Assembly (NCBI GenBank): GCA_022606425.2
Contig: JAHDVF020000240.1
Location: forward strand, 372,001-436,000
Direction: 5' to 3'
From: Lepidostoma basale
Lineage: Eukaryota; Arthropoda; Insecta; Trichoptera; Lepidostomatidae
DNA length: 64,000 nt
Below are positions 3,347 to 59,475 of this stretch, piece by piece (position 1 is the first letter of the stretch; each line of letters begins with the position of its first letter). The notes under the pieces were generated by a model that did no database searches, was not told the origin of the DNA, and saw only the letters and a program-made list of their open reading frames with translations. The translations under genes and the position numbers were made by a program.

Positions 3347-3904
3347 TTATTTTTTTCACCATTAATATGTTCACCTGTAAATAGTTACTAACGGTTCTTT
3401 TAATTAACTTTAATTGGGTACCTTACTCAACTCCAGCCAAAGCTTCAAAGTTATATCAAAGAAATTTTTCAAATTGAACAAATACACCTAAATGTTCGAA
3501 TAATCGTGAAAATTTCAGTTGATATATTTTTGTAACACCTGACGATGTCAACATAGGTTGACGAAACAGCTGTCGCGAAAAATAAAAATAAAATTGTGAT
3601 TCATAAAAACATAGTTTTATAATTTAACTGTTAATAATTTTGAAGAGACAACAGACAGCAGCTACAAATCAACCAAAAATTAAGACGTACACAGACACTG
3701 GACGAGGAACTGTGACAGATATCACTTACCGAATCCACGAACTAAGACAGGATAAACAAGGATATTGAACAATTGCCTGACACTTTACAATGAACTACCA
3801 AAAGACACAAGGAGTCTCACTACAAATCAATTTAAAATATACCTGAAACATTATATAGTTACAAGTAAGATCTAAAAATGTATCCAAAAAATAAATTAAA
3901 ATAA
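3347..3904 (+). mobile_element. Composite insertion: HHR repeat plus LINE end
   Basis: It contains an alpha-type hammerhead motif (3538-3574) and its arm (AGCTGTCGCGAAAAATAAAA...TTTAACTG). At ~3768-3880 lies a LINE C-terminal frame reading YNELPKDTRSLTTNQFKIYL followed by a stop. The LPxxxRSLxxxxFKxxLK pattern is common at the C-end of CR1/Jockey-type polyproteins. Confidence 0.6.
3538..3574 (+). ncRNA. Hammerhead ribozyme motif, alpha family
   Basis: Core CTGACGA (3539-3545), one extra T, stem II GTCAAC-ATAG-GTTGAC (six perfect pairs), GAAAC, palindromic stem III ACAGCTGT, then GTC with predicted cleavage after 3574. A T-run upstream can pair with the A-run downstream as stem I. Best alpha copy; activity untested. 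Confidence 0.75.
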
Positions 3905-4274
3905 ATATAAATATAAGAAGTGAATGCGGTGCGAATGATAGTGTCATGAACAAAATAATGAAAGGATCATTAAGATGGTTTGGACATATGGAAAGAATTA
4001 ATGAAGAAAGAATGGTAAAAAAGTATATGTCAATTATGTAAATGGAACCAGAAATAGAGGAAGACCGAGGAAAACGTGGCACGATCAAGTAAATCAAATA
4101 TTGAATGTCGGGAGCCATGTGAGGAGTCAGAGAAATCGACGCGCGTGCATGACACGATGTATGAATGTTGAGGAATCGAGAGAAATATGTCAGGAAAGAA
4201 AATTGTGGCAGTCCATTCTTTCTGCCTACCCCTTCGGGGAGACGGCGTGATGGTTAGGTAGTTAGTTAGTTAAA

Positions 4275-4962
4275 TATAAATAAATAAAATAATAAAAAAG
4301 TATCATATAGTGTTGCGACCAAAACAATGGACTATTTAATAATATTAAGTTTAGTTAATTATGTTTTCTATAATCTTCGACCGCAAGGGTCGACGAAAAA
4401 ACATTTTATATTCTTAATGACATAATGTATCGTCTTCTTGCATAATGCATTCCTGGAAATATTCTACCATTCTGATAAATAAATTATTCTACGGGTATAC
4501 CACTTAAAACGGGTCGAATTCGTTTTTTTATTGGATCACCGTTGATCCTTTACCGTTAAAGGATTTTGAATAATAATAAAGGATAACGGAAATAGCTGAA
4601 ATGTTTTATGATACCTGGAAAATATTACCACTTATTTAGGAGGAAGAAATGAACGAGTATGGTTGAAGCGATGCTGTGATTTCCCAGTAAGTGACCCAGA
4701 TAATATCATGCGTCAGTCCAGGGAAGAAATTCCGAAATGATCAAGAGAAAGTGTGTAGCAAGAATCTTCCGATTAATCATCGTCTAATGTGCTATTAGTC
4801 ACAATTATCTGGCCTACAAACACTGTTTAACATACATTGCTTTGCATATGCATAAAGATTTTTATTTATTTCTTCTATATTCGCCATAACTTTGTGTTGC
4901 GGATTAATTAAACAATGTTTATTTTTTTTTTACTTTGTAAACAACACTAACTTTATTTCAAA
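4275..4962. other. No recognisable feature
   Basis: Holds a short match (about 4308-4345, GACCAAAACAATGGACTA) to the outer arms of alpha HHR repeats. Otherwise nothing seen. Confidence 0.4.
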
Positions 4963-4965
4963 AAA

Positions 4966-5290
4966 TACTAACTAAAACTAACTTACCATCACGCCGTCTC
5001 CCCGGAGGGGTAGGCAGAAAGAATGGAACGCCACACTGTTCTGTCCTGACATACGTCTCTCGCTTCCTCTATATTCATACATCTTGTCGCACGTCGATTT
5101 TTCCGACTCCTCACGTGACCGACATTCAATATTTGATTGATTTGATCGTGCCACGTTTTCCTCTGCCTTCCTCTATTTCTAGCTCCGTTCACGCCGTTTA
5201 CATATACCTTCTTTACCATTCTGTCTTCACTCATTGATTCCATGTGTCCAAACCATCTTAATGACCCTTTCCTTATTTTGTTTGTTCATA
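4966..5290 (-). mobile_element. GETA LINE 3' fragment
   Basis: The minus strand reads MESMSEDRMVKKVYVNGVNG, RGRQRKTWHDQINQILNVG and YPSGETA, then the (TTAG)n-like tail at 4966-4988. Frame breaks occur near the R-rich segment. It abuts the HHR palindrome on its right. Confidence 0.85.
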
Positions 5291-5299
5291 ACACTTTCA

Positions 5300-5520
5300 T
5301 TATTAAAAAATTACAATTACTAAATAAACATGTTTCGGACACAGAAGCCCTTCATCAGGGATATAAATATATATATTTTTTATTGTTCATGAATGTGGTC
5401 AGTTTTGACAGATATCTGTAAAATCTGACCACATGCATGATTTTTTTTTTTTAATATTATAATATAATATTTATAACACTGATGAAGGGCTTTGAAAATG
5501 TTTTATTTTAATTTTTGCTT
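5300..5520. repeat. HHR palindrome, beta family
   Basis: Two hammerhead motifs face outward: minus at 5327-5358 and plus at 5479-5503. Between them is a second inverted repeat (ATGTGGTCAGTTTTGACAG against CTGACCACATGCATG). The plus motif has lost the 3' strand of stem II, so only the minus one looks foldable. Confidence 0.75.
5327..5358 (-). ncRNA. Hammerhead ribozyme motif, beta family
   Basis: The minus strand reads CTGATGA, extra A, stem II GGGC-TTCTGT-GTCC (one G-U pair), GAAAC, palindrome ACATGT, then T as the cleavage residue. Fits a type-I hammerhead with a minimal stem III. Confidence 0.7.
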
Positions 5521-5605
5521 ATTGCGAAAGTTGATATTATGTACAAAGTAAAGAATAGAAACATTGTTCAATTTTTATTTATCACTAAATAGTAAATATT
5601 TATCA

Positions 5606-5832
5606 CTTAATGGAACCATAAATAGAGGAAGACCGAGCAAAAGGTGACACGATCAAATAAATCAAATATTGAATGTCGGCCATGTGAGGAGTCAGAGAAA
5701 TCGACGCGCGTGCATGACACGATGTATGAATGTTAAGGAAGTGAGAGAAATATGTCAGGAAAAAAAAGTGTGGCAGTCCATTCTTTCTGCCTACCCCTTC
5801 GGGGAGAGTGCGTGATGGTTAGTTAGTTAGTC
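5606..5832 (+). mobile_element. GETA LINE 3' fragment
   Basis: Begins in the GTINRGRPSK region. It passes through the HDTMYEC/CMNVKEVREICQ region to the CCCCTTCGGGG hairpin and a (TTAG)n tail. Several frame breaks. Confidence 0.8.
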
Positions 5833-5927
5833 TAAATAGTAAATATGTACTATATATTTTTAATTGATTATACATCTTTCTTCCACCAGTTTCTACACCT
5901 CGCTGCTTATTTTTTTTATCTTTATAA

Positions 5928-6225
5928 TCAAATGTTAAATTAAATATTTACACAAACATGTTTCGGTATATACAAGCCCTTCATCAGTGTAGTTAAATAT
6001 TGTATAACACATATAAAATAAATATATAAACAATTTTTTTATGATTATTGTCAGTTTTGACAGAAGTGAAAACATCTTAATTTTAACATCAGATGTTCTG
6101 TCAAAACTGACCATATTCATGAAAAATCTGTTAAAATATTTAGTTTATATATACAATATTTAACTATACTAATGCAGGTCTTGTGTGCCCTGAACATATT
6201 TGTGTATATGTTTAATTTTTAATTT
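5928..6225. repeat. HHR palindrome, beta family
   Basis: Minus motif 5955-5987 (CTGATGA, A, GGG...CC, GAAAC, ACATGT, T). Degenerate plus motif ~6169-6200 (CTAATGC, GAACATATT). The inner inverted repeat GTCAGTTTTGACAGA against TCTGTCAAAACTGAC resembles that of 5300-5520. Confidence 0.7.
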
Positions 6226-6229
6226 AATT

Positions 6230-6775: not shown

Positions 6776-6850
6776 TTGAATTCATATGAAAATAAAAATG
6801 GTGATAGACTAGGTACCTGTCACATGTCATGAGAATTAATAGCTTAAAAA
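6776..6850 (+). mobile_element. SINE body fragment
   Basis: Matches the SINE core (GGTGATAGACTAGGTACC, CACATGTCATGAGAATTAAT). Both the tRNA head and the tail are missing. Confidence 0.65.
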
Positions 6851-7059
6851 ATGTATACACTAGTTAGATCCAAATAACGAATACAATTACATTAAAGACT
6901 AATTATTATTAATCTAATTGAAGCTGAAAACCCATATTTTACATATTTATTGTTTCTTGAACAATGATGTAAAACTCCATATTAGATGTTTTAGATGTTT
7001 TATTATATTTTATGGGAATGACATGTTTCGCCCTTCTAAGGCATTATCAAATGTTTCAT

Positions 7060-8678: not shown

Positions 8679-9107
8679 TTGTAATGTATCATTTGATAAT
8701 GCCTTAGAAGAGCGAAACACGTCATTCCCATAAAATATAATAAAACTTCTAGAAAACTGACGTTTTCATTCGTATTAACCACATTTTACATATTTCATAT
8801 CCAAATTAAAACCCAACTTGTATATTTGTTTTATCATACTTTCTAACCGATTGCGGATATCAGATGCAGCGTTCATATTCAGATGTTTAGATTTAAAACA
8901 CGTCTTATTGCGCCCTAAAGATGATTATGATTACATAACATAAACGGCGCTTTAAAAGTTGAAATATTTGTAAGAGTTAAATAGATACATCATCAATAGA
9001 TCATATTTTTACATACATATTTATACATACATCAATAGATCATATTTTTTTATAGTGATATTAGAATCAACAGTTATGTATTTTGTTATATTTATACTAG
9101 TTTTAAT

Positions 9108-10735: not shown

Positions 10736-10799
10736 ATTCCTTCTATATTTGCCATTCCTTTGTTTTGTGGATTCGTATTTGAATAACTTTTAGAAAATA

Positions 10800-10962
10800 A
10801 AGTAATTTTATTTTTATAAAAATTGTACTTTTCACAAACATGTTTCGGGATAAAGACGCCCTTCCTCAGTGGAGAAATTTTAACTTAACACTGAGAAAGG
10901 GGATCTGTGATACATAAAAACAAAGTTTCTTAATTTAACAGTTTATAAATAATATATTGCCA
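10800..10962 (-). repeat. HHR repeat, beta family, single arm
   Basis: Minus motif 10837-10869: CTGAGGA, extra A, GGG...CCC, GAAAC, ACATGT, T. To the right lies an alpha-type arm (TGTGATACATAAAAACAAAG) without its own motif. Confidence 0.65.
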
Positions 10963-12327: not shown

Positions 12328-12499
12328 ATAAATATGCATGTAAACATGTTAATAAACTGACAAATATGTTTGATTAGATACGTTTTATTATTTTATATAA
12401 AAATGCAGAGATTGATTTAATATTAAACGTCTAAATATTGTCTTTAAATGATATTTTTTTATTCGCAATCTCTATTGAAAAGCATCACATTTTTACAAT

Positions 12500-12545
12500 A
12501 CTTTTTTTGTGTTTCGGACCGTAGACGTACTTCCTCAGTTTATTT
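12500..12545 (-). repeat. Degenerate HHR motif, beta family
   Basis: The minus strand has CTGAGGA, extra A, GUAC...GGUCC-like stem II and GAAAC at 12511-12538. The stem III palindrome and cleavage site are mutated (ACACAAAA). Probably inactive. Confidence 0.5.
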
Positions 12546-12784
12546 TTATTTTATTTTTTAATTAATATTACACTGAAAAACGTCAGAAAATGTATTTTTT
12601 TTAAATTAAGTAAACAATTCTTTGAACTTTCGTTAGTTACATAATTACATACATATCTTTAAAATATTTTCAGTATGAAGGTACGTTTGCAAGCGCACTT
12701 GAATAATTGTAGAGGGTGTCAAGAAGAAACATCATATCTGGATTCCTCTCATTAGTATGGCATTATCTTACTTCCATTTTTTAT

Positions 12785-22994: not shown

Positions 22995-23204
22995 AATTTA
23001 ATAATAGCAAACACGATTGTTTAGTGGTTTTATTGGATTAAATTCATATAAATTATGACAAATTTGTTTCGCCTTGCGAGGGCATTCTCAAACTGTTTGA
23101 GAATGCCCTCGCAAGTCGAAACAAAATTTTCACAATTTATATTATTTATATAAATTAAATCCAAGTAAAACCACTAAACAATCGTGTTTGCTATTATTAA
23201 ATTT
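22995..23204. repeat. HHR palindrome, gamma variant
   Basis: Near-perfect 210-bp palindrome. Minus motif 23057-23091 and plus motif 23097-23133 read TTGAGAA, T, GCC...GGC, GAAAC, then a longer self-complementary stem III ACAAATTTGT and GTC. The centre is only 5 bp. Confidence 0.75.
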
Positions 23205-23699
23205 ATATGGAGTTTTACAAAACCATCAATACTTAATTGTCATCAAACGAAGCTCAAAAATCTCTTTGTTTGTAAAAGGCAAAACGTGAGATTTTGTATT
23301 TGCTGTTTTTCTAATAATAAAAAAATAGGAATTGTCTTAAAATACAATCTCAATGCATGCTTCTTTTTCTGCTCGTGCAGATAATCTTCGTATTCCATTA
23401 TAAGAAATGTTTTACATTTTTTAAATTAAGGTCAATCGTTCCATAATATAAAATGCATAATTTCCATTTGGGATGTCCTTGTAAGAACATTTTACTTCGA
23501 GTAAATTAATACTTTATATTAATAATTCTATATAAATAAAAAGCGTTATATATCTAGAATTCTGTACAAAATATGTATTATGACATTGATAAAACCGGCC
23601 GCAAAACAATTAAATTTTCCAAACACGTCAAAGTGTATTTCAAATTACGTAAAAATCATAAGTGTTTCTTCCATATTCGTCATCATTTAGTATTGTAGT

Positions 23700-24643: not shown

Positions 24644-24929
24644 TTATTAAATTAAGTTTCTTTGAAACGGGAAAAGCACCGATATGAATCGAGATGACTC
24701 TTTACTTGTGGAATAATCAGATGACATTAAAAACTTCACGTCTGTAGAATTGCTACAATGGACTTGAACAAAGAGAAATAGCAAGCTAAGAGTGTGATCC
24801 ATTTCAAGCAAGCACCTATTAGGAGTCAAAATGTCTGAAGCGATTTTGTTTGCTACACTGATAAATATACTCGTATGAAGCATTTAATTTGTGGTGTGGC
24901 ATTATTAAAAATAAATTTAAAACACTTTT

Positions 24930-25015
24930 GCTAGGTATTACACCACTTCATTTTTGTCAAAACCAACCGGTTTTTCTTCCGCGGAAGCTTCGTAAGGGTT
25001 ACAAAAAAAATGTTT
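24930..25015 (-). repeat. Zeta HHR-like arm
   Basis: Minus motif 24965-24996: CTTACGA, A, GCTTCC-GC-GGAAG, AAAAC (G12 lost), palindrome ACCGGT, T. Arm bases ACACCACTTCATTTTTGTC match 40817-41030. Probably inactive. Confidence 0.55.
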
Positions 25016-25116
25016 AGATAAAAATAAAGTAAAGAATAAAAAAAATCTGAAAAATATTTTCATTGTGATATATTCTAGCATTATATCCAGCCGCCAATAA
25101 ACCAAAGATAGATTAA

Positions 25117-25930
25117 TTAATACGAATGAAAACGTCAGTTTTCTAGAAGTTTTATTATATTTTATGGGAATGACACGTTTCGCCTTTCTAAGGCATTATC
25201 AAATATAACGAAATTTCCGCTCGTTGCTGTTTATTCTAACTAACTAACTAACCATCACGCCATTTCCCCGGAGGGGTAGGCTGAGAAGATGGATCGCCAC
25301 AATGGCCTGTCCTGGCATACCTCTCGGGCTTCCTCTACATTCATGCATCGTACCATGCACGCACGTCGATTATTCCGACTTCGAATGTGGCCACCTTTTA
25401 GTAATTGATTAATTTGGTCATGCCATGTTTTCCTCGGTCGTCCTCGGCTTCTTTTCCCACTCGCGCTGCTTGTGTACAACTTTTTAACCATTCTTCTCTC
25501 ATCCATTCGTTCCATATGTCCAAACCGTCTCAAAACTTACATTTCTTTCTTATTTCATCGTTCGGTATTCTATCATACAACGTTTTCCCGCACATTCTTC
25601 TTAGTGATCTTATTTCTACGGCGTTTATCCTGCTTTCATCCTTCTTTTGCCAGCTCCAAGCTTCACTTCCATAGATGAGGGTGTTTATATACACTAGTAA
25701 ATGGAGCAAAATATGGTAATTAACGAAAATTTATGTGACTTTATACATTTTTTATAAAATAATTATTTGGGTAGGTCCAAAAATATTGGAAAGTGTTTCT
25801 TGCACATAATCCCTTAGAAAGGCGAAACATGTCATTCCCATAAAATATTATAAAACTTCTAGAAAACTAACGTTTTCATTCGTATTAATTATTTAATATG
25901 GAGTTTTACATCATTGTTCAAGAAACAATA
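25117..25930. repeat. HHR palindrome (gamma) interrupted by GETA LINE
   Basis: Left arm 25117-25202 (minus motif 25172-25202, TTGATAA core, GAAAC, ACGTGTC). Right arm 25802-25930 (degenerate plus motif 25802-25833). The arms carry TTCTAGAAGTTTTATTATAT and its complement. A GETA LINE lies inside. Confidence 0.65.
25236..25683 (-). mobile_element. GETA LINE, KLYTSS subfamily
   Basis: Almost identical to 18013-18460, including the ~45-bp deletion after FGHMER, so the two share a recent common source. It reaches YGSEAWSWQKKDESR and then stops. Located inside an HHR palindrome. Confidence 0.85.
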
Positions 25931-26289: not shown

Positions 26290-26395
26290 TTAATAACATA
26301 ATGATAATGCCCTAATAAGGTGAAACATGTCACTCGCTTTAACTATCAAAAAACTTCCCGGAAACGTATAAATACTTTCCTAAATATTATATTTT
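26290..26395 (+). repeat. HHR repeat, gamma family, single arm
   Basis: Plus motif 26301-26331: ATGATAA, T, GCCCTAATAAGGT, GAAAC, ATGTC. Like other gamma copies it has A in place of G8. Confidence 0.5.
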
Positions 26396-26424
26396 AATAC
26401 AACATATTACAAGATAAAGAAATA

Positions 26425-31270: not shown

Positions 31271-32555
31271 TTAGGTCCTTACATATGAAATTGGCGTTTT
31301 GCCGTACTGGCAACTTTGATCTCAAATATCTTCTGTTTGGTTAGGAATTCCAAATTCAAATTTATACAGCTATTTACTCAAGTATTTGTGTTTTGAAAAT
31401 TATAAGTCATTTGTTTTTTCCTCAATTGTTTTTTTTCTTTGCGTCACTCAGTTTACAAAATGGAAAACTTGAAATATCGCGTTATTTACGAGTACGAGTT
31501 CCACCGTGGCACCAGTGCTGCAGAAACGGCTCGAAGGATTAATGATGTGTATGGCGACGGTGCCGCAAAAGAAAACACAGTGCTTTTTTGGTTCCAACGT
31601 TTTCGTTCTGGAAATTTCGACCTGCAGAACAAGCCCGTGGACGGCCGGAGACCAAAGTTGATAATGAAGAATTGAAGGCTATTGTGGAAGCGGATCCATC
31701 GCAAACCACGTCCGAGTTAGCTGCAAGCTGCGGTGTTAGTGATAAAACTGTTTTAATCCACTTGAAGCAAATTGGGAAGGTGAAAAAGCTTGAAAGGTGG
31801 GTACCTCACGAATTGAGTGAAGCTAATCAACAAACGCGCGTTGACTGCTGCGTTGCATTACTCAACCGGCACAATAATGAAGGGATTTTGAATCGAATCA
31901 TTGCCTGTGATGAAAAGTGGATCCTGTATGATAATCGGAAGCGCTCATCGCAATGGCTGAACCCTGCCGAACCAGCCAAACCATGCCCCAAGCGAAAATT
32001 GACTCCAAAAAAGTTACTTGTGAGTGTTTGGTGGACTAGTGCTGGTGTCGTTCACTACAGCTTTCTTAAATCTGGCCAGACGATTACGGCAGATGTCTAT
32101 TGTCAGCAACTGTAAACCATGATGGAAAAGCTAGCTGCTAAACAACCGAGGCTGGTTAATCGCTCTAGGCCACTGCTGCTTCATGATAACGCTAGACCAC
32201 ACACTGCACAACAGACGGCTACCAAATTAGAAGAGCTTCAATTGGAATGTCTAAGACATCCACCGTACTCTCCGGACCTTGCCCCAATAGATTTCTATTT
32301 ATTTAGAAATTTGGATAACTTCTTGCAAGGGAAAAAATTCAACTCCGATGGGGCAGTCCAAACCGACTTCAAAGATTTTATTGATTCCCGTCCGAATGTT
32401 TTTTTTTAGTATAGGGATCGATGAACTACCTATGAGATGGTAAAAGTGCATAGATAGCAATGGTACATACTTTGATTAAATAAACATTATATTTAAAAAA
32501 AATCAACTTTATGTTCCTCCCATACAAAACGCCAATTTCATATGTAAGGACCTAA
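31271..32555 (+). mobile_element. Mariner transposon, mellifera-type, copy 1
   Basis: 1285 bp with ~31-bp inverted ends starting TTAGGTCCTTACATATGAAA. TA dinucleotides flank at 31269-31270 and 32556-32557. Length, ends and transposase fit the mellifera subfamily of mariner elements. Almost identical to 53766-55049 in the opposite orientation. Confidence 0.95.
31460..32479 (+). pseudogene. Mariner transposase, inactivated
   Basis: Transposase for cut-and-paste at TA sites. N-terminal HTH (MENLKYRVIYEYEFHRGTSA), then WVPHELSE, catalytic D in CDEKWILYDN, second D in LLHDNARPH, and third D in SPDLAPID 34 residues on (DD34D). Lesions: one C lost in a CCCC run near 31636 (frameshift), CAA-to-TAA stop at 32113, and a T-run length change near 32395. 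The expected length is ~340 residues. All catalytic aspartates are still encoded in pieces. Confidence 0.93.
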
Positions 32556-34175: not shown

Positions 34176-34533
34176 TATGTTACTAATCCAGTAACATATT
34201 TCAAGTAAACAGGTTTCAAGTTGCCTTCCCCAAGATTTTTTTAGGGTTTACCTGCCCTTAGCTTGTGGGTTTCGATATTGATGGTAAGGTCGATCACATT
34301 ACCTGGGACTCGCGGGACCACGAGGACCATTCTAGGACGCCAGGGTCTCGGACTTACTGGAAGTCTTGCTGTTTTCATGCAAAATGACACCACATTTTAT
34401 ACGTACATACCTTCCAGCAGAGTATAATATATTTCTATTTTCTTTTTCTTACACTTTGAATATATTATTTACAACACTGATATTAAAAAAATTAAATTAT
34501 TTAGACATGTTTCGGACAAACAGTCCTTGCTCA

Positions 34534-34770
34534 TCTTTCTATTTTGGTAAAACAAGGCGTAATTTTAAAATAAGAATAAAAGAGCACATAAGATGTCTCT
34601 CTAATAATAATTTTTCTGAATTTGCTAACCACCTCATAGAAAAATATAATTAATTTAATAAAGATATTGGCGTTGAAATTTTGCATGTTAATAAAAGAAA
34701 TATAACTTTGAGCAATCTCGAAATTTTAGATTAAAAACAAAGAAAATATTATAAATAATCAAATAAATTT
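34534..34770 (+). pseudogene. GIY-YIG endonuclease fragment, Penelope-like
   Basis: Plus frame FYFGKTRRNFKIRIKEHIRC and LSNNNFSEFANHLIEKYN, stop, then FNKDIGVEILHVNKRNITLS and NLEILD. The YxGKTxRxFKxRxKEH block, the HL/EK segment and the following LE match the second half of the GIY-YIG domain at the C-end of Penelope-like proteins. The GIY half and the RT are missing. Stops at ~34651, 34732 and 34759. Confidence 0.8.
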
Positions 34771-34977
34771 AACGTCAAGTAAAATCTTTGATTTATTTCC
34801 TTTGTTGTAAGTAATTAACTGAACCCCAATAAGAACTTTAAATTATTATTTTAAATTGAATCGTAATATTTGTTATAACAAAAGCATAAACGTTCCAAAA
34901 TAAATCATCTTTATAACATCTGTCAGATCATGTAAACAACAAAAACTTTAAAATATTTTTATACATATGTATATTTA

Positions 34978-35008
34978 CTGAAGGAGGACTGCTTGTCCGA
35001 AACATGTC
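34978..35008 (+). ncRNA. Hammerhead ribozyme motif, epsilon family
   Basis: CTGAAGG (A9 changed to G), A, stem II GGAC-TGCTT-GTCC, GAAAC, palindrome ACATGT, C. The opposite arm (34504-34534) has two core changes. Likely weak or dead, but the fold is clear. Confidence 0.6.
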
Positions 35009-35091
35009 TATATAATTTTATTTTCTTATTATAATATCAGTGTTGTATATAAAAAGTGTATAAAAAGAAAAATAGAAATAAACCATCATAA

Positions 35092-37164: not shown

Positions 37165-37382
37165 AAAAACTGTTAAATTAAAAAAACTTTGTTTTATGTA
37201 TCACAATTGTATTTTTATTTTTCACGACAGCTATTTTGTCAACTTATATTAACATCGTCAGGTGTATTCACTTCCAAACAACTGATGATGTCGACATAGG
37301 TTGTTGAAACAGCTGTCGCGAAAAATAAAAATACAACTGTGATACACAAAACAACGTTTTATTAATTTAAGAGTTTATAATG
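37165..37382. repeat. HHR palindrome, alpha family
   Basis: Arms of ~95 bp (37165-37261 and 37282-37382) are inverted copies carrying TGTGATACA and TTTTATTTTTC. The minus motif 37226-37261 has AAAAT in place of GAAAC. The plus motif is better kept. Confidence 0.8.
37282..37317 (+). ncRNA. Hammerhead ribozyme motif, alpha family
   Basis: CTGATGA, extra T, stem II GTCGAC-ATAG-GTTGTT (two G-U pairs, one mismatch), GAAAC, stem III palindrome ACAGCTGT, GTC. The flanks TGTATTCAC and GCGAAAAATA resemble 3538-3574. Confidence 0.65.
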
Positions 37383-39871: not shown

Positions 39872-40635
39872 TATAAACCAGAAATTAAGCTTCTAGATAA
39901 AAGCATTTCAACTTCTCTGGATGACTATCGAATTTAACGAGCTGTCTTTGTGATATATGTGTCTAATAATACAATGTTTCTACAATAGTCACGGTGCAGG
40001 CTCTGCAATCTTCTGCCGTGAAATACGAAATGCTCAATGAGATGCTGTTCATTTCCAAGAACAGTAATCGCGGCATACGGCGAATGAGACCTCTGTTGGT
40101 TTGTCTGTATTGTGTATATTTTCGTATGTGTAATTACCTAATTACCCATGCGAGTAAGTATATTTTGAGTAATGCAGGCACCTCGGTACCGGACCTGGGG
40201 AATTATCGAGCATTATTTTAAATAGTTACATCCAATTTATTACGTTATGTAAGAAGAATTAAGTGTTATGGTGCTTCTGAGTGAGTGGCAGGTTAAAAAA
40301 TATATTGTAAAATTTGGCCATATTGTGTTTATTTCGTAAGATGGATTAATAGACATAAAAGTCAGGTTAATAAATATGGATAGATGCCGTTACTACACAT
40401 TACATAAGTTCGTATACGTATTAAATAATTACTATTGTTAATGATTAAACTTTTTTAACATCTTCACACTGAAAATAATCGAGTATTTGATATACGAGTA
40501 CTTTACTACAAAATAACAATTAATCGATAGTTTACTACAAAATAACCATCAATAATAAATATATATTCTTTTATATTCGTATGAAGCAATTAGTTGTGTT
40601 GTGGTATTATTATAAATAATTTTAAAACAACTTAA
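39872..40635. other. No recognisable feature
   Basis: A 75-residue plus frame (39994-40221) is not recognised. Confidence 0.35.
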
Positions 40636-40639
40636 TTAA

Positions 40640-40812
40640 TACGAATGGAAACGTCAGTTTTTTAGAAGTTTTATTATATTTTATGGGAATGACACGTTTT
40701 GCCCTTTTAAGGCTGCTAAAAATATAATATAATACTTCTAGAAAACTGACGTTTACATTCGTATTAATTATTTAATATGGAGTTTATCATCATTGTTCAA
40801 GAAACAATAAAT
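40640..40812. repeat. HHR palindrome (gamma), centre deleted
   Basis: Left arm with minus remnant 40691-40720 (GACACGTTTT, CCTTTTAAGG). Right arm TTCTAGAAAACTGACGTTTA and the flank TATGGAGTTTATCATCATTG. The second motif is lost. Confidence 0.6.
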
Positions 40813-40816: not shown

Positions 40817-41030
40817 ACACCTTATTTACACCACTTTATTTTGTCATACCAACCGGTTTCGCTCTCGCCGGAGCTCAGTGGGGTCAGGGTTACAAAACAA
40901 ACTAGAATAGAAACAAAACAAAAAAGTTCTAGATTCTTTGTAACCCTAACGAAGCTCTGGTGGGAGCGAAACCGATTGGTTTGACAAAACTAAAGTGGTG
41001 GAAAAATAATTAAAAGCGTTTTAAAAATAT
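40817..41030. repeat. Zeta HHR palindrome
   Basis: Minus motif 40851-40878 (CTGA, GCTC-CGGCGA-GAGC, GAAAC, ACCGGT, T; NGA missing). Plus motif 40946-40977 (CTAACGA, A, GCTC-TGGTGG-GAGC, GAAAC, CG, ATT). The outer arms ACACCACTTTATTTTGTCAT pair with their complement. Confidence 0.6.
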
Positions 41031-41054
41031 TTTTACTAATTTATTTCCTATATT

Positions 41055-44699: not shown

Positions 44700-44880
44700 C
44701 CGTTGTTTTGGCCGAAACACTATGATACTTTAACATTATTAACTGTTAAAATAAAAAAAAGGCTGTTTATAGTATCACAAGTTATGTAAGTTAGTAACAC
44801 TGATGAAGTCAACATAGGTTGACAAAACTATCGGGTAAAATAGAAAAATAGTAAAAATTGTGATACCATAAAGAGCTTTT
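44700..44880 (+). repeat. Alpha HHR repeat, single motif
   Basis: Plus motif 44800-44832: CTGATGA, A, GTCAAC-ATAG-GTTGAC (perfect stem II) but AAAAC for GAAAC and TATC for the cleavage part. Left arm GTTTTGGCCGAAACAC as in 37380-37420. Probably inactive. Confidence 0.6.
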
Positions 44881-45114
44881 TATATTTTCCAAGTTCAAAT
44901 GCGTTTTATGTTCAATAGCAATTTAATTTGGGCCCCATTTTGATTTGCCTACCAAATCAAATGAAAAAAACGGCAAAACTTAATGAATCTAAAACAAAAA
45001 ATGCTCTCTATATTATATACTCGTATATTACAAAAATTCTTATTTGATAACATTTTGAAGTTTTTGCTAGAGTTGGATTATTTTAAGTGCCTAATTACAG
45101 TTATTCAAATGAAT

Positions 45115-47394: not shown

Positions 47395-47450
47395 AAATTG
47401 TCTTAACAGCTGATTTGCTCACCAATGTTAGCATCGTCAGGTGTTACAAT
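47395..47450 (-). repeat. Degenerate alpha HHR motif
   Basis: Minus 47405-47440: CTGACGA, T, GCTAACATTGGTGAGC (partly paired), AAATC for GAAAC, AGCTGTT. Core mutated. Confidence 0.55.
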
Positions 47451-47732: not shown

Positions 47733-48013
47733 TTAGGAAATTAAAAATAACTTTGTTTAATCCACTAATTATAAAAAAATATTTTTTAAAAACGTCATGT
47801 TTTGGAGGATGCCTCCATCTTCATGTGTAAAAATATAATAATAAATAAAATATAATTTATATTTTACACCTGAAGATGGAGGCATCCTCCGAAACATGTC
47901 GTTTTTTTAAATATTTTTTAATAATTAGTGGATTAAACAAAGTTATTTTTAATTTCCTGAGTATATTACTATGGAATTCCACAGTGTTAATGCCTCAGCG
48001 TTCAATAAGTTGA
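47733..48013. repeat. HHR palindrome, delta family
   Basis: Arms TTAGGAAATTAAAAATAACT and TTAATCCACTAATTAT pair with complements at 47905-47960. The minus motif 47794-47824 has ATGAAGA and AAAAC changes. The plus motif is intact. The right flank GGAATTCCACAGTGTTAATG recurs at 49300, 53160, 59200 and 62550. Confidence 0.8.
47870..47900 (+). ncRNA. Hammerhead ribozyme motif, delta family (best copy)
   Basis: CTGAAGA, extra T, stem II GGAGG-CAT-CCTCC (five perfect pairs), GAAAC, palindrome ACATGT, C17, predicted cleavage after 47900. Stem I can form C-G and A-U pairs, an internal loop and then ATATTT/AAATAT. All other conserved core bases are present. Confidence 0.8.
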
Positions 48014-48799: not shown

Positions 48800-49172
48800 A
48801 AAAAAGTACTAACAAACTGAGAGTCGACATAATTAGTATTGGCTTGCGGGACAGAGTCAGAAATGAAGACATACCAGACAGGACATAAGTTTCCGACGTC
48901 ATCAAGTGGGCCGCAACCCTTAAGTGGCGTTGGGCGGGACACGTCGCTCGTGACCCAGATGAAAAGTGGACAAGGCGACTGCTGTGCTGGTACCCGAGAA
49001 TGATAAAGCGTGAAGTGGGCGTCCACAGTTGCGCTGGCGCAAAGATATCTGGAAGAGTGCGGGAAGTGCCTGGATGCGGATCCCTCGGGATAGAAGGGAG
49101 TGGAAAACACAAGAGGAGGCCTTCGACCAGGAGTGGACGGCCACAACAGGCTGAAGAAGAAGAATAAGATAC
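48800..49172 (+). mobile_element. LINE C-terminal fragment (FDQEW type)
   Basis: ISIGLRDRVRNEDIPDRT, SDVIKWAATLKWRWAGHVAR, DPDEKWTRRLL, then a frameshift to RRQLRWRKDI-like, SREWKTQEEAFDQEWTATTG and a (GAA)n tail. Confidence 0.8.
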
Positions 49173-49179
49173 ATTATTT

Positions 49180-49225
49180 GTAACTACTGATGAAGGGTTT
49201 CTGCGTTCCGAAACATGTGAGTGCT
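49180..49225 (+). repeat. HHR motif, beta family, cleavage site lost
   Basis: 49187-49219: CTGATGA, A, GGGTTTCTGCGTTCC, GAAAC, ACATGT, then G at the cleavage position. G17 is not allowed in known hammerheads, so this copy should not cut. Confidence 0.6.
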
Positions 49226-49298
49226 GTGTTACAAAGTTTTGTTTTACAAAGTTAATTAAAATATTTTTCAATAATAAATACACAACACAGAGTATTGA

Positions 49299-49762
49299 AA
49301 GCTAAGGCATTAACTCTATGGAACTCTATGGAATTCCATAGTAATACACTTAGGAAATTGAAAATAACTTTGTTTATTATCCACAAAACATTAAAAAAAC
49401 ACGGCATGTTTCGGAGGATACCTCCGTTATTAATTAATTAGGAAACCTCATGTATTAATTTCTATATAAATCATACCTTTTCAAATGGTTGTTTTTTCTA
49501 AATTACAATTTTATATTTCTATATTATCATTATGTATTATTATTGTTTAATATTATTTATTATTTCTTGCTGATAAAAAATAATTATTAGTACTTATAAC
49601 AATTAGCCCAGGTTAATTTTTAAATTTAAATTATTGGATCGAATTTTAAATGCGTTTTTTATATTAGTCTTTGTTAGTTTAGTTTTATCCTCCGAAACAT
49701 GACGTGTTTTTTTTTATATTTTGTGGATAATATACAAAGTTATTTTTAATTTCCTAAGTGAA
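49299..49762. repeat. Delta HHR arms with cores truncated
   Basis: Left arm 49299-49430 (TTCCATAGTAATACACTTAG to GCATGTTTCGGAGGATACCT). Right arm 49680-49762 (TATCCTCCGAAACATGACGT to AATTTCCTAAGTG). Both miss CTGAAGA. About 250 bp of AT-rich sequence separates them. Confidence 0.6.
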
Positions 49763-50559: not shown

Positions 50560-51075
50560 TAACAATCAATACGAATGAAAACGTTTATTTTCTAGAAGTT
50601 TTATTATATTTTATGGAAAATTCATGTTTTGTCTTGCTAATGTTTTATCGAGAGTATTTTATGATGATGCCTTAGGGAGGCGAAATATGTTTATCCCATT
50701 AAATATAATAAAACTTCGTATTAATTATTTATATAATTTTTCTTCATATACAAAGAAATAATACATTTTAAAAAGAAAAAAATAACGAAATAACCATCAC
50801 GCCATCTTGCTGAAAGGGTAGGAAAAATAATAGACTGCCACACTTTTTTTTCCTGGCATATTTCTCTCGCTTCCTCAACATTACATCGCGTCATGCATAA
50901 TAAAAATAAGGGTAAGATTTTTTTAGAATGGGGTAAAGATGATGCCTTAGCAAAGCGAAACATGTCATTCACATAAAATCTAAATAAAATTTCTAGAAAA
51001 CAGACGTTTTCGTTCGTATTATTTATTTAATATGAAGTTTTATTAATTCATCATTGTCGAAGAAACCAATTATAA
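50560..51075. repeat. Gamma HHR repeats with small GETA remnant
   Basis: Palindrome 50560-50716: degenerate minus 50621-50650; plus 50661-50691 with ATGATGA (G8 present), T, GCC...GGC, GAAAT. A GETA LINE scrap (minus) spans 50788-50900. A third motif at 50936-50966 (AAGATGA, GAAAC, ATGTC) lies before the arm TTCTAGAAAACAGACGTTTT. Confidence 0.6.
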
Positions 51076-51672: not shown

Positions 51673-51794
51673 TGACTAATAAACTCTATGGCAACGCAAT
51701 ACTCGTATATTATATCCAACAGTTTTACCACTTTTCATATTTTTTTAATGTATTCATAATTTCATTAATGTTTTTCTCTTCTATGTTTCTTAGC

Positions 51795-52310
51795 TCTTCA
51801 TCTTCTTCTTCTTCCTCAGCGTTTTCCCGCCCACTCCTGGACAAAGACCTCCTCCATCCGTTTCCATGTCACTCTGTTATAAATGATCGAAACACTCATA
51901 TACGAGTATTTAATTTTGTTTAAACACCACATTATTTTGTTCTTCAAACTACGGACCGGCTTCACTATAAGCGGACTTCATCAAAATAACAGTTAATCCC
52001 CGCTCGGAGTGAAATCAGTCATTTAAAAACAAAATATGTGGTGTTAATCTCTTCTTCTTCTTCTTCTTCCTCAGCCTATTCCCGTCCACTCCTGGACAAA
52101 GGCATCCTCCATCCGTTTCCATGTCACTCTGTTATAAATGAACGAAACACTCATATATTTTATTTTGTTTAAACACCACTTTACTTTGTTCTTCAAACTA
52201 CCGACCGGTTTCACTATAAGCGGACTTCATCAAAATAACAGTTAATCCACGCTCGGAGTGAAACCAGTCATTTAAAAACAAAATATGTGGAGTTAATTTT
52301 TTTTTAAATA
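51795..52310. repeat. Tandem duplication, period 255 bp
   Basis: Two units, each with a (GAA)n-tailed LINE 3' end on the minus strand (FQEWTGIG-like), then a zeta-type inverted pair: minus GATGAAGTCC...GAAACCGGTC and plus CGGAGTGAAACCAGTC, within ACACCAC arms. CCTCAGC occurs at 51814 and 52069. Confidence 0.85.
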
Positions 52311-53149: not shown

Positions 53150-53245
53150 AACGTTAATACTGTGGAATTCCATAATGAAGAGTTTTTTATTCTTGAGTTT
53201 ATTTGAATCGACATATTTCGAAGGTTTTATAACTTCATCATTGGG
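53150..53245 (-). repeat. HHR-like repeat, single arm
   Basis: Minus 53210-53241: ATGATGA, A, GTTATAAAACCTTC (weak stem II), GAAAT, ATGTC. The flank TAATACTGTGGAATTCCATA belongs to the delta family. Confidence 0.5.
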
Positions 53246-53348
53246 AGAATGATATAAAATGTTTCTCGTATCTCGTTTACGTCGTTCTTCTGATGATGGG
53301 GGTGTAATATCTTCGAATCAAGTCTAGAAATATAAACTATAAAATAAA

Positions 53349-53594: not shown

Positions 53595-53725
53595 ATTTTC
53601 GCCTGACTAAGGCATTATCGAATGTTTTACTAATAAATAAGCATTATCAAACATTTGATTCCTATAAACTGTAATAAAACTTCTCGAATAAAACAGATGT
53701 TTTCATTTGTATTAATTAACGTGTT
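53595..53725. repeat. Gamma HHR remnant pair
   Basis: Minus TTTTCGCCTGACTAAGGCAT at 53596-53619. A plus arm follows with GCATTATCAAACATTTGATT and ACAGATGTTTTCATTTGTAT. The cores are broken. It directly follows the SINE tail. Confidence 0.5.
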
Positions 53726-53765: not shown

Positions 53766-55049
53766 TTAGGTCCTTACATATGAAATTGGCGTTTTGTATG
53801 GGAGGAACATAAAGTTGATTTTTTTTAAATATAATATATTTATTTAATCAAAGTATGTACCATTGCTATATATGCACTTTTGCCATCTCATAGGTAGTTC
53901 ATCGATCCCTTTACTAAAAAACCATTCGGACGGGAATCAATAAAATCTTTGAAGTCGGTTTGGACTGCCCCATCGGAGTTGAATTTTTTCCCTTGCAAGA
54001 AGTTATCCAAATTTCGAAAAAAATAGTGATCTGTTGGGGCAAGGTCCGGAGAGTACGGTGGATGTCTTAGACATTCCAATTGAAGCTCTTCTAATTTGGT
54101 AGCCGTCTGTTGTGCAGTGTGTGGTCTAGCGTTATCATGAAGCAGAAGTGGCCTAGAGCGATTAACCAGCCTCGGTTATTTAGCAGCTAGCTTTTCCATC
54201 ATGGCTTGCAGTTGCTGACAATAGACATCTGCCGTAATCGTCTGGCCAGATTTAAGAAAGCTGTAGTGAACGACACCAGCACTAGTCCACCAAACGCTCA
54301 CAAATAACTTTTTTGGAGTCAATTTTCGCTTGGGGCATGGTTTGGCTGGTTCGGCAGGGTTCAGCCATTGCGATGAGCGCTTCCGATTATCATACAGGAT
54401 CCACTTTTCATCACAGGTAATGATTCGATTCAAAATCCCTTCATTATTGTGCCGGTTGAGTAATGCAACGCAGCAGTCAACGCGCGTTTGTTGATTTGCT
54501 TCACTCAATTCGTGAGGTACCCACCTTTCAAGCTTTTCACCTTCCCAATTTGCTTCAAGTGGATTAAAACAGTTTTATCACTAACACCGCAGCCTGCAGC
54601 TAACTCGGACGTGGTTTGCGATGGATCCGTTTCCACAATAGCCTTCAATTCTTCATTATCAACATTGGTCTCCGGCCGTCCACGGGGCTTGTTCTGCAGG
54701 TCGAAATTTCCAGAACGAAAACGTTGGAACCAAAAACGCACTGTGTTTTCTTTTGCGGCACCGTCGCCGTACACATAATTAATCCTTCGAGCCGTTTCTG
54801 CAGCACTGGTGCCACGGTGGAACTCGTACTCGTAAATAACGCGATATTTCAAGTTTTCCATTTTGTAAACTGAGTGAAGCAAAGAAAAAAACAATTGAGG
54901 AAAAAACAAATGAATTATAATTTTCGAAACACCAGTACTTGAGTAAATAGCTGTATAAATTTTAATTTGGAATTCTTAACCAAAGAGAAGATATTTGAGA
55001 TCAAAGTTGCCAGTACGGCAAAACGCCAATTTCATATGTAAGGACCTAA
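53766..55049 (-). mobile_element. Mariner transposon, mellifera-type, copy 2
   Basis: 1284 bp with the same ~31-bp inverted ends as copy 1. TA flanks at 53764-53765 and 55050-55051. Opposite orientation to copy 1, 22 kb away. Confidence 0.95.
53844..54861 (-). pseudogene. Mariner transposase, inactivated
   Basis: Same layout as 31460-32479: HTH start, TCDEKWILYDN, LLHDNARPH and SPDLAPTDHYFFRNLDNF. Lesions differ: one A lost in an A-run near 54533, CAA-to-TAA stop at 54176-54178 and a T-run shortened near 53923. The N-terminal half (RGRPET) that is frameshifted in copy 1 is open here. Confidence 0.93.
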
Positions 55050-55061
55050 TATATTTAAAAA

Positions 55062-55848: not shown

Positions 55849-55990
55849 ATAATAATTAAATAAAACGATGTTCGTTGACAACTTCCACTTTTGTCTTTAT
55901 TTCGACAGCGAGCCTGGCGAAACCGGTCGCTGCCGAAATAAAGACCAAAATGGGAGTAGTTAAAAAGCATCGTCTTATTTAATTATTATC
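55849..55990. repeat. Compact zeta-type palindrome
   Basis: TTTATTTCG-A-CAGCG pairs with CGCTG-C-CGAAATAAA around AGCCTGGCGAAACCGGT. This looks like stem I, stem II, GAAAC and GGTC of a hammerhead, with most of CTGANGA missing. A half copy (CATCGTTTTATTTAATTA) lies at 57818-57863. Confidence 0.5.
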
Positions 55991-55994
55991 CGTA

Positions 55995-56900
55995 TTAATT
56001 ATTTATATTTTACATTATTTGTTCGTTTTTCGAGTGGACTTGGCATATGATAAGGACCTCTCCACTCTCTATTCTAACATCCTTTTTTTTAATTCTCTAT
56101 ACGCATGTGTGTTATAAATTGATATGGACATTTTTTTAATTCCTAATTAGGCCGTTTTTTTAATTGATTAATTTGTTCGGGTCGCATTGTCCCGTCGAAG
56201 CTTTCCAACTCCCCGATATACATTCATCATCAGGTTATTTCACTCATATATACTTGTTTGCGTTAATAGATGGAGTGTTAATAAAATAGCATTAGTTTTA
56301 TTTCCGTTACGACTGCTTCTACGGTTATTTAAAAAAAAAGGTTTTGTTTATAAAAAATCCATAAGCGTTAGTGTATTATCTAATTAGTTCATCCGAAAGA
56401 TGATTTTCTACTTCCACTAATCCAGTTGAGTTATTCAAACGTGTAATTCTCTCCGCGGGGCCAGATAAAGTTACACATTTTCATAACTTGTTATGATCAA
56501 CAAAACATTACCGTTCTTTCTGTAATTTCGTATCTAATTCATACTTACACGTGTGTCATTAGCATCGAAATAACTATGTATTGCCTTTGGCATCGAATTC
56601 ATCCTAAAACCTCTCATTATCATTTCGCCACTCGAATAACTTCATTATGTTTTAGGTACAGATATGGTTGATCGATTTCGATTCGGATTCGAAGTATTCA
56701 TGAAGTACGATGATTATTACTTTTCTATGGTGTCCATAAAAATACGGTAACTAGTGTAACATCCAATTTAATGATTACCACTCTACTGAAAATATGAATT
56801 TATATTTTTATTGCGTAATCCAAAATATTTATAAATATTTTTCCATTTTAAAGGTTTCTATTCGGCTTTGTTTGTTTAGATAAAACGTCATTTGAAATAA
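55995..56900. other. No recognisable feature
   Basis: No domain or repeat match seen on either strand. Confidence 0.35.
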
Positions 56901-56904
56901 AATA

Positions 56905-57235
56905 TAAATTATTTCTCTTTTCATTTATACAACACTTACATTAAAAAAATACATATACATGTTTCGGACAACCAGTCCTTCTTCAGTGAGACATATTATA
57001 AATATATACATTAAAAATAATATAAAATTGTTTACATGATCTAACGGATGTTATTAATCTTAAAACATCTGTCAGATCATGTAAACAATTTTATAATATT
57101 TTTAATGTGTATCTTTATAATATGTATCACTGAAGAAGGAATGGTTGTCCGAAACGTGTGTATTCAATTGAATTGTTTTTAATGTAAGTGTTGTTTAAAC
57201 AAAGTAAATAAAAAGAGAAATAAATAATTTATTTG
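56905..57235. repeat. HHR palindrome, epsilon family, best pair
   Basis: Minus motif 56956-56986: CTGAAGA, A, GGAC-TGGTT-GTCC, GAAAC, ACATGT, A. Plus motif 57130-57160: CTGAAGA, A, GGAA-TGGTT-GTCC, GAAAC, GTGTG. Inner inverted repeat GTTTACATGATCTAACGGAT / GTCAGATCATGTAAAC. The outer arms pair too. Confidence 0.8.
56956..56986 (-). ncRNA. Hammerhead ribozyme motif, epsilon family
   Basis: All core bases intact, four Watson-Crick pairs in stem II, cleavage residue A (allowed). One extra A between the core and stem II. Stem III is the ACATGT palindrome. Confidence 0.75.
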
Positions 57236-57298
57236 TTTTCAATAAATATTTTGCTTAAAAATGTATTATACACAGAGCCCATTTTAACTATTTTACGT

Positions 57299-57543
57299 TA
57301 TTATTATAATTTTATTGAATCGCTATTTTACATCATGACAGCATGAGCCAAATCAATGTTAAGGGTATTATAGCTATCATAGTGATTCTCGTAACACGTA
57401 ATAGGTAGCTAATCTATTGGCATTTTATTGTCACGTGAATTCTACACCAGACCGAAGACAGTGTGACAATCACACTGCCCTCGCCGGGACTCGAACCCGG
57501 AGGTAGCAGTCAATGCACTTACCACTCGGCCACGAAGGTCGTC
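57299..57543 (-). mobile_element. SINE, B-tail type, full length
   Basis: Minus-strand head GACCTTCGTGGCCGAGTGG, then B box GGGTTCGAGTCC, body, B tail and (ATT)n at 57299-57313. The head is very close to a Ser/Leu tRNA 5' half. Confidence 0.9.
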
Positions 57544-57589
57544 GTTATTTCTCAAGCAGTATTTCAGATTATGAAGCCTTCAGCATTTC

Positions 57590-57785
57590 TTCTTATTCTT
57601 TAGCCTTCTTTCCTCCACCGCTGAAAATAGGTCCTCCACTGTCTCTTCCATTTTCCTCCACTCGTCCCTATCTTGTCCCTTCCACATCCAGGTCGTTCCA
57701 GCTATACGGGCAATGTCGTCAGTCCATCTATTAAGTGACTTTCCGACACTCCTTTTCTTTGTTCAAATCTTTGTCTTTCGCATTT
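57590..57785 (-). mobile_element. LINE C-terminal fragment (EKAY type)
   Basis: Minus: KRSVGKSLNRWTDDIARIAG, TTWMWKGQDRDEWRKMEETV, then VEERRLK. Same family as 33335-33605. Confidence 0.75.
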
Positions 57786-57864
57786 ATTAACCATTGATTT
57801 ACTTATCAAATTTATTGACAAAAGTGGAAGTAGTTAAAAAACATCGTTTTATTTAATTACATTC

Positions 57865-58342
57865 ATGGAGAGTGTCATGCATACATTTTGATTTTACTTT
57901 CTCTTCACATGTCTAAAATTTTAAGATCATTCCCGATTCTTTTAATATTTAAAACACATGTTAACGTATGCTTAATGAAACGTAATTACAGTTGACGTAG
58001 TAGTTTTTCAAGATGATTAAGTTGTTTAACTTGAATATGAACAAATAGTAACGATAAACTTAATTTAGAACATAATAAAAAATCGGATCATAAATAAAAT
58101 TATTTGAAAAAAGAAATAAATACAAAACGACGGATTAATTTTTTTGAGTGGCGTATTCTGTGGACAAGTACTCATATCTACCATAGACAGGTTTAATGGC
58201 TTATTGTAGATCAAATACTATTGTATTAACAGTAAACTCTTTAGACAGGAAATGTTAGTAATGGATTAATGTTGTTTTATCAGACCGGTAAGCTGAACCT
58301 GATCGATCACTTGAGGGGGTCAGGATTTAAAAAAAAATACAA
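57865..58342. other. No recognisable feature
   Basis: AT-rich; nothing supported. Confidence 0.4.
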
Positions 58343-58344
58343 AG

Positions 58345-58790
58345 AAATTTTCTTCTTCTTCTTCTTCTTCTGATTGTAGATCTTGCGATCTGTTTATGCA
58401 GAATATCAACTTTCTTCCTGTGATGAACACGAACAGCCTTCTCTCCATCTCTTTGGTTGTCGTCCTCGTGGTCGACGGCCCTCTGGAGTCTCGTGCATCA
58501 CGATATTAGGAATTCTTGCTGGATCCATTCTCTCGATGTGGTCCCTCCAGAATCGTCTTCTTTGCCTACTCCATCTCACTATGTCTTCAATTTTGCAGGA
58601 TTTGTGAATTTCTTTATTGGGTATCCTATATCTAAGGATTCTCCCCACAATAGGTCGCAATGTTCTCATTTCTGCTACTCTTAAGAGATGTTTGGTTCTG
58701 ACAGTGTCTGCTCTTGCTTCGATTCCATATGTCATTATGGGCCTGATAAATGTTTTATAAATTCTAACTTTGCTTTCTATTTTAAATTTT
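58345..58790 (-). mobile_element. GAA-tail LINE C-terminal fragment, clean frame
   Basis: A 109-residue open minus frame: MTYGIEARADTVRTKHLLRV, AEMRTLRPIVGRILRYRIPN, KEIHKSCKIEDIVRWSRQRR, RFWRDHIERMDPARIPNIVM and GRRPRGRQPKRWREGCSCSS. A (GAA)n tail follows at 58349-58370. Confidence 0.88.
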
Positions 58791-58979
58791 CATGTCAATT
58801 ATTACAAATATTCTCAAAAGTTACTCGTATATTTGTAAAGACGTCTCGGAGCGTTTGCATGGATGTAGGTGTGCTTTTGAAACATTGAACGCGATTTTCT
58901 CAAAACGGTGTCTACACGTGTTTGTTTGTCTTCATGTAACCCCGAACATTTAATAATAATATTCTTCTAATTATTCTTC

Positions 58980-59160
58980 TCTTCTTCTTATCCTGTCACT
59001 CCTCCGCGGTGCAGAGGGCAGAATCCTTCTCCACTCAACTCTATCTCTATAACGCCATTCCAAGTGAGGCCTGTCGCCTTAACCTCGTCCAGCAGGGTTC
59101 TTCACCGGGTAGCTCTAGGTCAACCTCGCTTCCTATTTCCATCTACCAGGGGTCACAATT
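58980..59160 (-). mobile_element. LINE 3' fragment (EVKAAD type)
   Basis: Minus: RSYPVKNPAGRG-like, KATGLTWNGVIEIELSGEGF, CPLHRGGVTG, GAA-rich tail. Homologous to 63242-63565. Confidence 0.6.
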
Positions 59161-59193
59161 AATATAATATTATTATTCTTTAACTTATTGAAC

Positions 59194-59475
59194 GCTAAGG
59201 CATTAATACTGTGTAACTCCATAGTAATATACTTAGGAAATTGAAAATAACTTTGATTAATCCACTAATTATCAAAAAAATATTTAAAAAACACTACATG
59301 TTTCGGAGGATACCACCATCTTCAGGTGTAAAAATATAATGATATATAATATAAGCATTAATGTCATTATATTTTTACACCTGAAGATGCAGGTATTCTC
59401 CGAAACATGTCGTGTTTTTAATATTTTTTTAATAATTTGTGGATTAAACAAAGTTATTTTCAATTTCCTAAGTAT
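59194..59475. repeat. HHR palindrome, delta family
   Basis: Arms as in 47733-48013 (ACTTAGGAAATTGAAAATAA). Minus motif 59295-59325: CTGAAGA, T, GGTGG-TAT-CCTCC, GAAAC, ACATGT, A. Plus motif 59381-59411 with one stem II mismatch. Both cores are intact. Confidence 0.8.
59381..59411 (+). ncRNA. Hammerhead ribozyme motif, delta family
   Basis: CTGAAGA, extra T, stem II GCAGG-TAT-TCTCC (one C-C mismatch, one G-U), GAAAC, ACATGT, C. Same layout as 47870-47900. Confidence 0.7.

Follow-up and report, generated by a model that had tools for sequence, protein, structure and literature searches.

A 64,000-nucleotide stretch of the genome of Lepidostoma basale (Trichoptera), positions 372,001 to 436,000 of the forward strand of contig JAHDVF020000240.1 in assembly GCA_022606425.2 (the whole stretch is hereafter called the window), harbors several families of short repeats with hammerhead-like motifs. 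These repeats are most likely decayed pseudo-long terminal repeats (pLTRs), derived from several Penelope-like element (PLE) families, and each pLTR would once have carried a minimal type-I hammerhead whose palindromic stem III would have served dimer cleavage in the source elements. The hammerhead motif in the window is real, as the pattern CTGANGA-N(5-30)-GAAAC was observed at 16 sites against 0.67 expected (100 shuffles), and 7 strict sites, in which a stem II of 3 bp or more, including two G-C pairs, closes on GAAA, were found against 0.025 expected (200 dinucleotide shuffles). A palindrome of 6-8 nt starts at A15.1 in 6 of the 7 strict sites, the background rate of a 6-12 nt palindrome after any GAAA of the window being 67/1024, and in all 7 one extra base (A or T) separates CTGANGA from stem II. 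The control comprised at least 120 core matches (loose pattern) in viral contigs, with a base composition unlike that of the window and at least two pairs of identical rows; among the 120 matches listed, 18 had a stem II of 4 bp or longer, 1 had a palindrome after the core, and none combined a palindrome with a stem II of 3 bp or longer, and the core pattern including ACATGT gave no matches in the viral contigs searched.

Profile searches (nhmmer), seeded from the sites of an earlier note on this DNA, yielded six families plus one subfamily, with 38 copies whose stem III is readable by homology. The families include alpha (5 copies), A (6), B (4), C (7 readable), zeta or Z (4 readable) and H (16 rows at E up to 0.01, with the 23.1-kb pair included), and the A, B and C repeats match one another across families. 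The Z copy 52233(-) is inside this count at E 0.32 only, while the truncated rows 5479(+), 10891(+), 40719(+), 53626(-) and 61711(+), the partial, non-palindromic 53649(+), the doubtful 10400(+), the ACCGGT sites 13459(-), 41069(-) and 55920(+), which lack family support, and the second unit of a tandem at ~51978(-) stand outside it. Stem III is perfectly palindromic in 21 of the 38 copies and in 26 when G-U pairs are counted; the outer two pairs are intact in 28 and the inner pairs in 33, and perfect pairing has been lost in 17, the window copies being dead or near-dead insertions. All four palindromes quoted in the earlier note (ACATGT, ACAGCTGT, ACCGGT and ACAAATTTGT) are present in the window, and by the counts above its figure of about 30 core sites with a palindrome is somewhat high. 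The CTGANGA-like core it placed at 23.1 kb does not stand, as the site reads TTGAGAA in a member of family H whose partner arm has a broken palindrome. The copies, with their positions in the window, are distributed as follows:

59235..59469, family A head-to-head pair, 59325(-) and 59381(+), both ACATGT, within inverted repeat 59221-59483
47735..47959, family A head-to-head pair, 47870(+) ACATGT and 47822(-) with decayed ACATGA
49352..49755, family A pair with truncated arms 49425(-) and 49687(+), palindromes gone
56908..57217, family B head-to-head pair, 56986(-) ACATGT and 57130(+) ACGTGT with H17 = G
34451..35067, family B pair 34527(-)/34978(+), both ACATGT, around an endonuclease-like remnant
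34531..34731, plus strand, broken reading frame FYFGKTRRNFKIRIKEHI...FANHLIEKYN, similar to a Penelope-like ORF at its C-terminal GIY-YIG end, family assigned by motif only
5278..5492, family C, 5358(-) ACATGT plus truncated 5479(+)
5900..6220, family C head-to-head pair, 5987(-) ACATGT and decayed 6170(+)
10776..10910, family C, 10869(-) ACATGT plus truncated 10891(+) that continues as an alpha 3' end
12456..12562, minus strand, decayed family C copy, ACACAA
23752..23876, plus strand, family C copy, ACATGT
49152..49269, plus strand, family C copy, ACATGT, H17 = G
3500..3627, plus strand, alpha copy, ACAGCTGT
37173..37370, alpha head-to-head pair, 37282(+) ACAGCTGT, minus arm ATAGCTGT
44782..44885, plus strand, decayed alpha copy
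47401..47449, minus strand, decayed alpha copy
40823..41034, zeta (Z) head-to-head pair, minus arm ACCGGT, 40946(+) ACCGAT
24908..25007, minus strand, zeta copy, ACCGGT
51794..52305, minus strand, two-unit direct tandem, ~255 bp each, with a degenerate zeta-like motif per unit (ACCGGT; GCCGGT), zeta assignment weak (E 0.32)
25097..25927, family H pair, arms 25215(-) and 25791(+) separated by a different repeat
40603..40806, family H head-to-head pair with a truncated plus arm
50561..51067, family H pair 50655(-)/50657(+) plus a third copy 50933(+)
53597..53724, family H pair, both arms truncated
61645..61808, family H head-to-head pair
23009..23218, palindromic pair at 23.1 kb related to family H, with ACAAATTTGT on the minus arm and ACAAAATTTT on the plus arm
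6951..7057, minus strand, family H copy, ACATGT
8686..8783, plus strand, family H copy, ACACGT
26299..26410, plus strand, family H copy, ACATGT

In family A elements one arm is extended beyond the inverted repeat by a common segment of ~45 bp (47966-48011, 59182-59227 and 49293-49350), so the family A pairs are asymmetric. At 10891-10938 the truncated family C core continues into a stretch like the alpha 3' end (E 0.0014), suggesting an inter-family mosaic.

Judged from their letters, the motifs look like minimal type-I hammerheads with an open stem I. Each pLTR would have carried a stem I of ~4 bp, CUGANGA plus one base, a stem II of 4-6 bp and GAAA, with a stem III that would be essentially a palindrome of 6-10 nt preceding H17. 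The three-helix alignment was built from the 11 best of the 17 readable A, B and C copies, leaving out 47822(-), 49425(-), 49687(+), 34527(-), 6170(+) and 12538(-); within it 82.6% of the cells pair and 20 cells are changed on both sides, and neither these two values nor the covariation score was reached in any of 500 shuffles, while slid registers pair at 20-52%. Paired cells amount to 70.5% in stem I, 81.8% in stem II and 100% in stem III. The two-sided changes are confined to stems I and II, and because stem III is unvaried on both sides within A, B and C, the alignment is silent on selection for the palindrome. The type-I core is likewise retained in these 11 copies, with CTGANGA in 10, GAAA and the A15.1-U16.1 pair in all 11 and an H17 other than G in 9, and none of them has all scored pairs, the core and H17 intact together. 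A covariance model made from the same copies, which themselves score 41.7-55.9 bits, found three other A/B arms in the window (E 1.5e-5 to 1e-3) at 29.7, 25.9 and 22.9 bits, the second barely above and the third below the best control locus. A weak inverted pair of hammerhead-like matches at 53204-53330 may represent one more family; its arms 53204(-) and 53284(+) reach 18.7-19.9 bits, under the control maximum of 25.2, and it is not claimed as such.

Concerning their arrangement, 32 of the 44 placed copies stand in 16 head-to-head pairs. Same-family neighbours within 700 bp (n = 19) were scored as 15 divergent, 2 convergent and 2 of the same orientation, and the overlapping pair 40719(+)/40725(-), scored convergent, is head-to-head by direction, which raises the divergent pairs to 16. 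Between the two arms of one family B pair lies the remnant FYFGKTRRNFKIRIKEHI...FANHLIEKYN, which resembles the end of a PLE GIY-YIG endonuclease, Pfam (at its cut-off) and the protein database having given no confirmation; the GIY-YIG-like motif had no matches in 40 mononucleotide shuffles. The layout of a hammerhead-bearing pLTR beside an inverted pLTR corresponds to the 16 head-to-head pairs, provided that these repeats are pLTRs, as we infer. PLE pLTRs with an adjacent inverted pLTR are documented, and head-to-head is described as the most frequent form (PMC3846280). The repeats are most likely decayed pLTR-type ends of Penelope-like elements.

Several results weigh against this interpretation. 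Two of the five covariation measures, those least inflated by relatedness according to the description of the tool, are unexceptional in the 11-copy alignment, as 6 pairs with two-sided change were equalled or exceeded in 129 of 500 shuffles and 13 further pair types in 63 of 500. The Rfam hammerhead models gave no gathering hits in the window, and no hammerhead appears among the 29 listed Rfam hits at E up to 10 or among 7 hits in one 131-nt slice; the earlier note had proposed that the motifs fail if a hammerhead covariance model scores them no better than shuffled sequence, and with the Rfam models, which reported no copy, its proposal would formally fail. The Rfam miss lowers the claim of a canonical hammerhead, but not that of a minimal PLE variant. 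For zeta, alpha and H the model made from the 11 copies gives no better than E 0.5-5, and 80 control loci, taken from the 120 viral matches listed and sharing the core by selection, score up to 25.2 bits, so the held-out families are inseparable from them by this model. The endonuclease-like remnant matched no Pfam family at cut-off (below it, two matches to unrelated families had E 0.026 and 0.12), and the protein database search gave no relative, so PLE membership rests on the motif, position and architecture. A scan of the window with reverse transcriptase motifs returned loose single matches, none convincing.

As most copies lie in inverted pairs of ~200-600 bp, it might be proposed that the repeats are inverted-repeat DNA transposons, of the miniature inverted-repeat transposable element (MITE) or foldback type, with arms that are hammerhead-like by chance or capture. 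In the same direction, three elements, at 23.1 kb, 47.8 kb and 59.3 kb, have sub-cutoff Rfam matches to miRNA hairpin families. We consider this highly improbable: the core, the stems and H17 are conserved with two-sided changes in stems I and II (the two unexceptional measures notwithstanding), the arms are asymmetric, an endonuclease-like ORF end lies between two B arms, and head-to-head pLTRs are a known PLE form (PMC3846280). A miRNA identity for the three elements was rejected, these matches being long inverted repeats under curated cutoffs. About as improbable is that the repeats are retrozymes, which are non-autonomous, carry type-I hammerheads in tandem repeats of 150-450 bp and spread as circular RNAs; type-I hammerhead ribozymes in low-GC tandem repeats are described as metazoan retrozymes (PMC7229834), and the window holds the direct ~255-bp tandem with a degenerate zeta-like motif at 51794-52305 and two same-orientation neighbour pairs in family H. 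The remaining placed copies are dispersed or head-to-head and the stems are minimal; the family H neighbours (25791(+)/26299(+) and 50657(+)/50933(+)) are not arrays of one unit, and when a head-to-tail array with a canonical type-I hammerhead was sought among the 21 tandem-repeat rows of the window, only a single row, of two units, had a motif, and that a degenerate one. The units of this tandem are ~91-92% alike, and it is the only retrozyme-like arrangement found in the window. It is also very unlikely, in our estimate, that the head-to-head pLTR pair was itself the spreading unit, that is, a palindromic non-autonomous Penelope derivative of 200-350 bp with the same hammerhead on each strand; because the stem III palindrome is identical on both strands, opposite-strand transcripts of such a unit could pair through it, and its letters may have changed repeatedly under selection for self-complementarity.

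On the interpretation of the repeats as Penelope-type pLTRs, pairs of hammerheads in the source elements, either within the same tandem transcript or on separate transcripts kept in contact, would most likely have shared stem III and cleaved. A dimer-shared stem III is sequence-compatible in 26 of the 38 copies (G-U allowed), and for isolated hammerheads of 56-65 nt the predicted gain from dimerisation was 3.6 to 11.9 kcal/mol in 14 of 14 examined, which favours the dimer idea for free RNAs. The part of the earlier note that read the motifs as type-I-like hammerheads in Penelope-type repeats, their stem III being self-complementary and dimer-compatible, is upheld, as something already in print. 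Bare duplex energies of -4.6 kcal/mol for ACAUGU, -8.3 for ACCGGU, -11.1 for ACAGCUGU and -8.2 for ACAAAUUUGU were computed, and with ribozyme flanks these become -6.0 to -6.6, -12.3, -12.5 and -9.6 kcal/mol, respectively. By these energies, ACAUGU, the commonest palindrome, would hold two free RNAs together only weakly and so require either some help or hammerheads in tandem within a single transcript; pairing in trans would be feasible for the alpha and zeta palindromes.

For the window copies the same is not supported. The earlier note expected each of these RNAs to pair with another copy through the palindrome, but the 32 paired copies have an inverted partner no more than 600 bp away, which in head-to-head copies places the ribozyme's complement directly upstream, and the nine head-to-head elements folded are predicted to close mostly or wholly arm to arm, with minimum free energies of -38 to -167 kcal/mol and 46-146 arm-bridging pairs, every pair bridging the arms in 5 of the 9; the ACAUGU duplex, by comparison, offers -4.6 kcal/mol bare and -6.0 to -6.6 kcal/mol with its flanks. 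An RNA hairpin between the arms would thus mask the ribozyme, and the predicted folding makes the head-to-head copies unlikely as working free dimers.

Selection for dimer formation, proposed in the earlier note from palindromes that keep self-complementarity while their letters change, is suggestive only, the argument resting on the between-family comparison. The letters do differ between families with self-complementarity kept (ACATGT, ACCGGT, ACAGCTGT and ACAAATTTGT), but this amounts to about three events, and within families the palindrome has decayed in the 17 copies noted above. In family H, identity is 0.89 in the palindrome, 0.92 in GAAA, 0.87 in the following 40 bases and 0.83 in the core plus stem II. 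Selection, if there was any, must have operated in the active source elements rather than in the window copies. The palindromes might have been kept for a reason other than dimers, such as DNA self-priming at the inverted junction or, for the longer forms only, a hairpin with a 4-nt loop, which seems unlikely to us. In its favour, palindromes at PLE inverted junctions have been interpreted as self-priming (PMC3846280), and ACAGCTGT and ACAAATTTGT are by their letters able to close as hairpins with 4-nt loops. Speaking against it, the palindrome is found in register, with A15.1 and H17 as its bounds, and not at the inverted junction, and ACATGT and ACCGGT are, on general grounds, too short for a stable hairpin.

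Family H differs in its core, where 10 of the 14 readable copies have U at position 3 and 11 have A at position 8, with U3 and A8 together in 9 and the canonical C3 with G8 in none of the 14, so the source element of this family most likely carried a U3-A8 pair. This covariation also occurs in the hammerheads of Perreault et al. 2011 (PMC3088659), where it is presented as natural and such ribozymes are called proven active in vitro, so the U3-A8 core has a precedent in print.

The surroundings are rich in transposon debris, and some frames look by eye like C-terminal fragments of long interspersed nuclear elements (LINEs). Pfam searches on 8 ORFs of the window returned only a mariner-type transposase and its helix-turn-helix (HTH), with mariner-type remnants at 31546-32115 (Pfam Transposase_1) and 54176-54975 (Pfam HTH_48). 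One ORF has 20 database relatives, three of which carry Pfam PF00078 (reverse transcriptase); one relative comes from the insect Cotesia glomerata, at 36% identity.

The dimer reading of palindromic stem III is already published, and the title of the 2017 work of Lünse contains the words 'cleave RNA as dimers'. In the legend to Fig. S8 of Perreault 2011 (PMC3088659), the vast majority of palindromic stem III/loop III sequences are described as able to pair as dimers; minimal hammerhead ribozymes in PLE pLTRs, with possible cleavage via dimeric motifs, are reported in PMC7761336, and the works of Cervera & de la Pena 2014 and Lunse, Weinberg & Breaker 2017 are described or cited in PMC7761336, PMC6466107 and PMC6155905. 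The window copies share with these minimal PLE hammerheads the type-I layout, the tiny stem III, the pLTR-type location, the dimer-compatible palindrome and the state of dispersed non-coding remnants, and differ in nothing decisive, the window having several families and four palindromes side by side. The repeat hammerheads of Aedes aegypti resemble them in a palindromic stem III and loop III that would pair fully in a dimer, although the Aedes dimer helix is described as 10 bp whereas the window copies mostly have 6 bp, and the Aedes and Nematostella examples tested there are described as giving no cleavage (PMC3088659). Two hammerheads sharing a self-complementary stem III are likewise known from newt satellite 2 and ASBVd (Forster et al. 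1988, as cited), which are tandem repeats or a viroid, whereas the window copies are dispersed inverted pLTR pairs. For PAc, a Poseidon element of Anolis, cleavage in vitro is reported only with the protein of the element, ribozyme mutants still insert, and PLEs are described as arranged in tandem or partial tandem (Frangieh et al. 2024, PMC11167929); this protein-dependence belongs to the data on PAc itself, and the hammerheads of the window are known from sequence.

The window alone leaves knowledge of the hammerhead class unchanged, and the earlier note was a good reading of an already known kind of sequence. It does provide a compact natural sample, in which related families, four self-complementary stem III sequences and one U3-A8 family occur within a single window, and this sample is useful for asking whether Penelope hammerheads need dimers and whether selection keeps the palindromes genome-wide.

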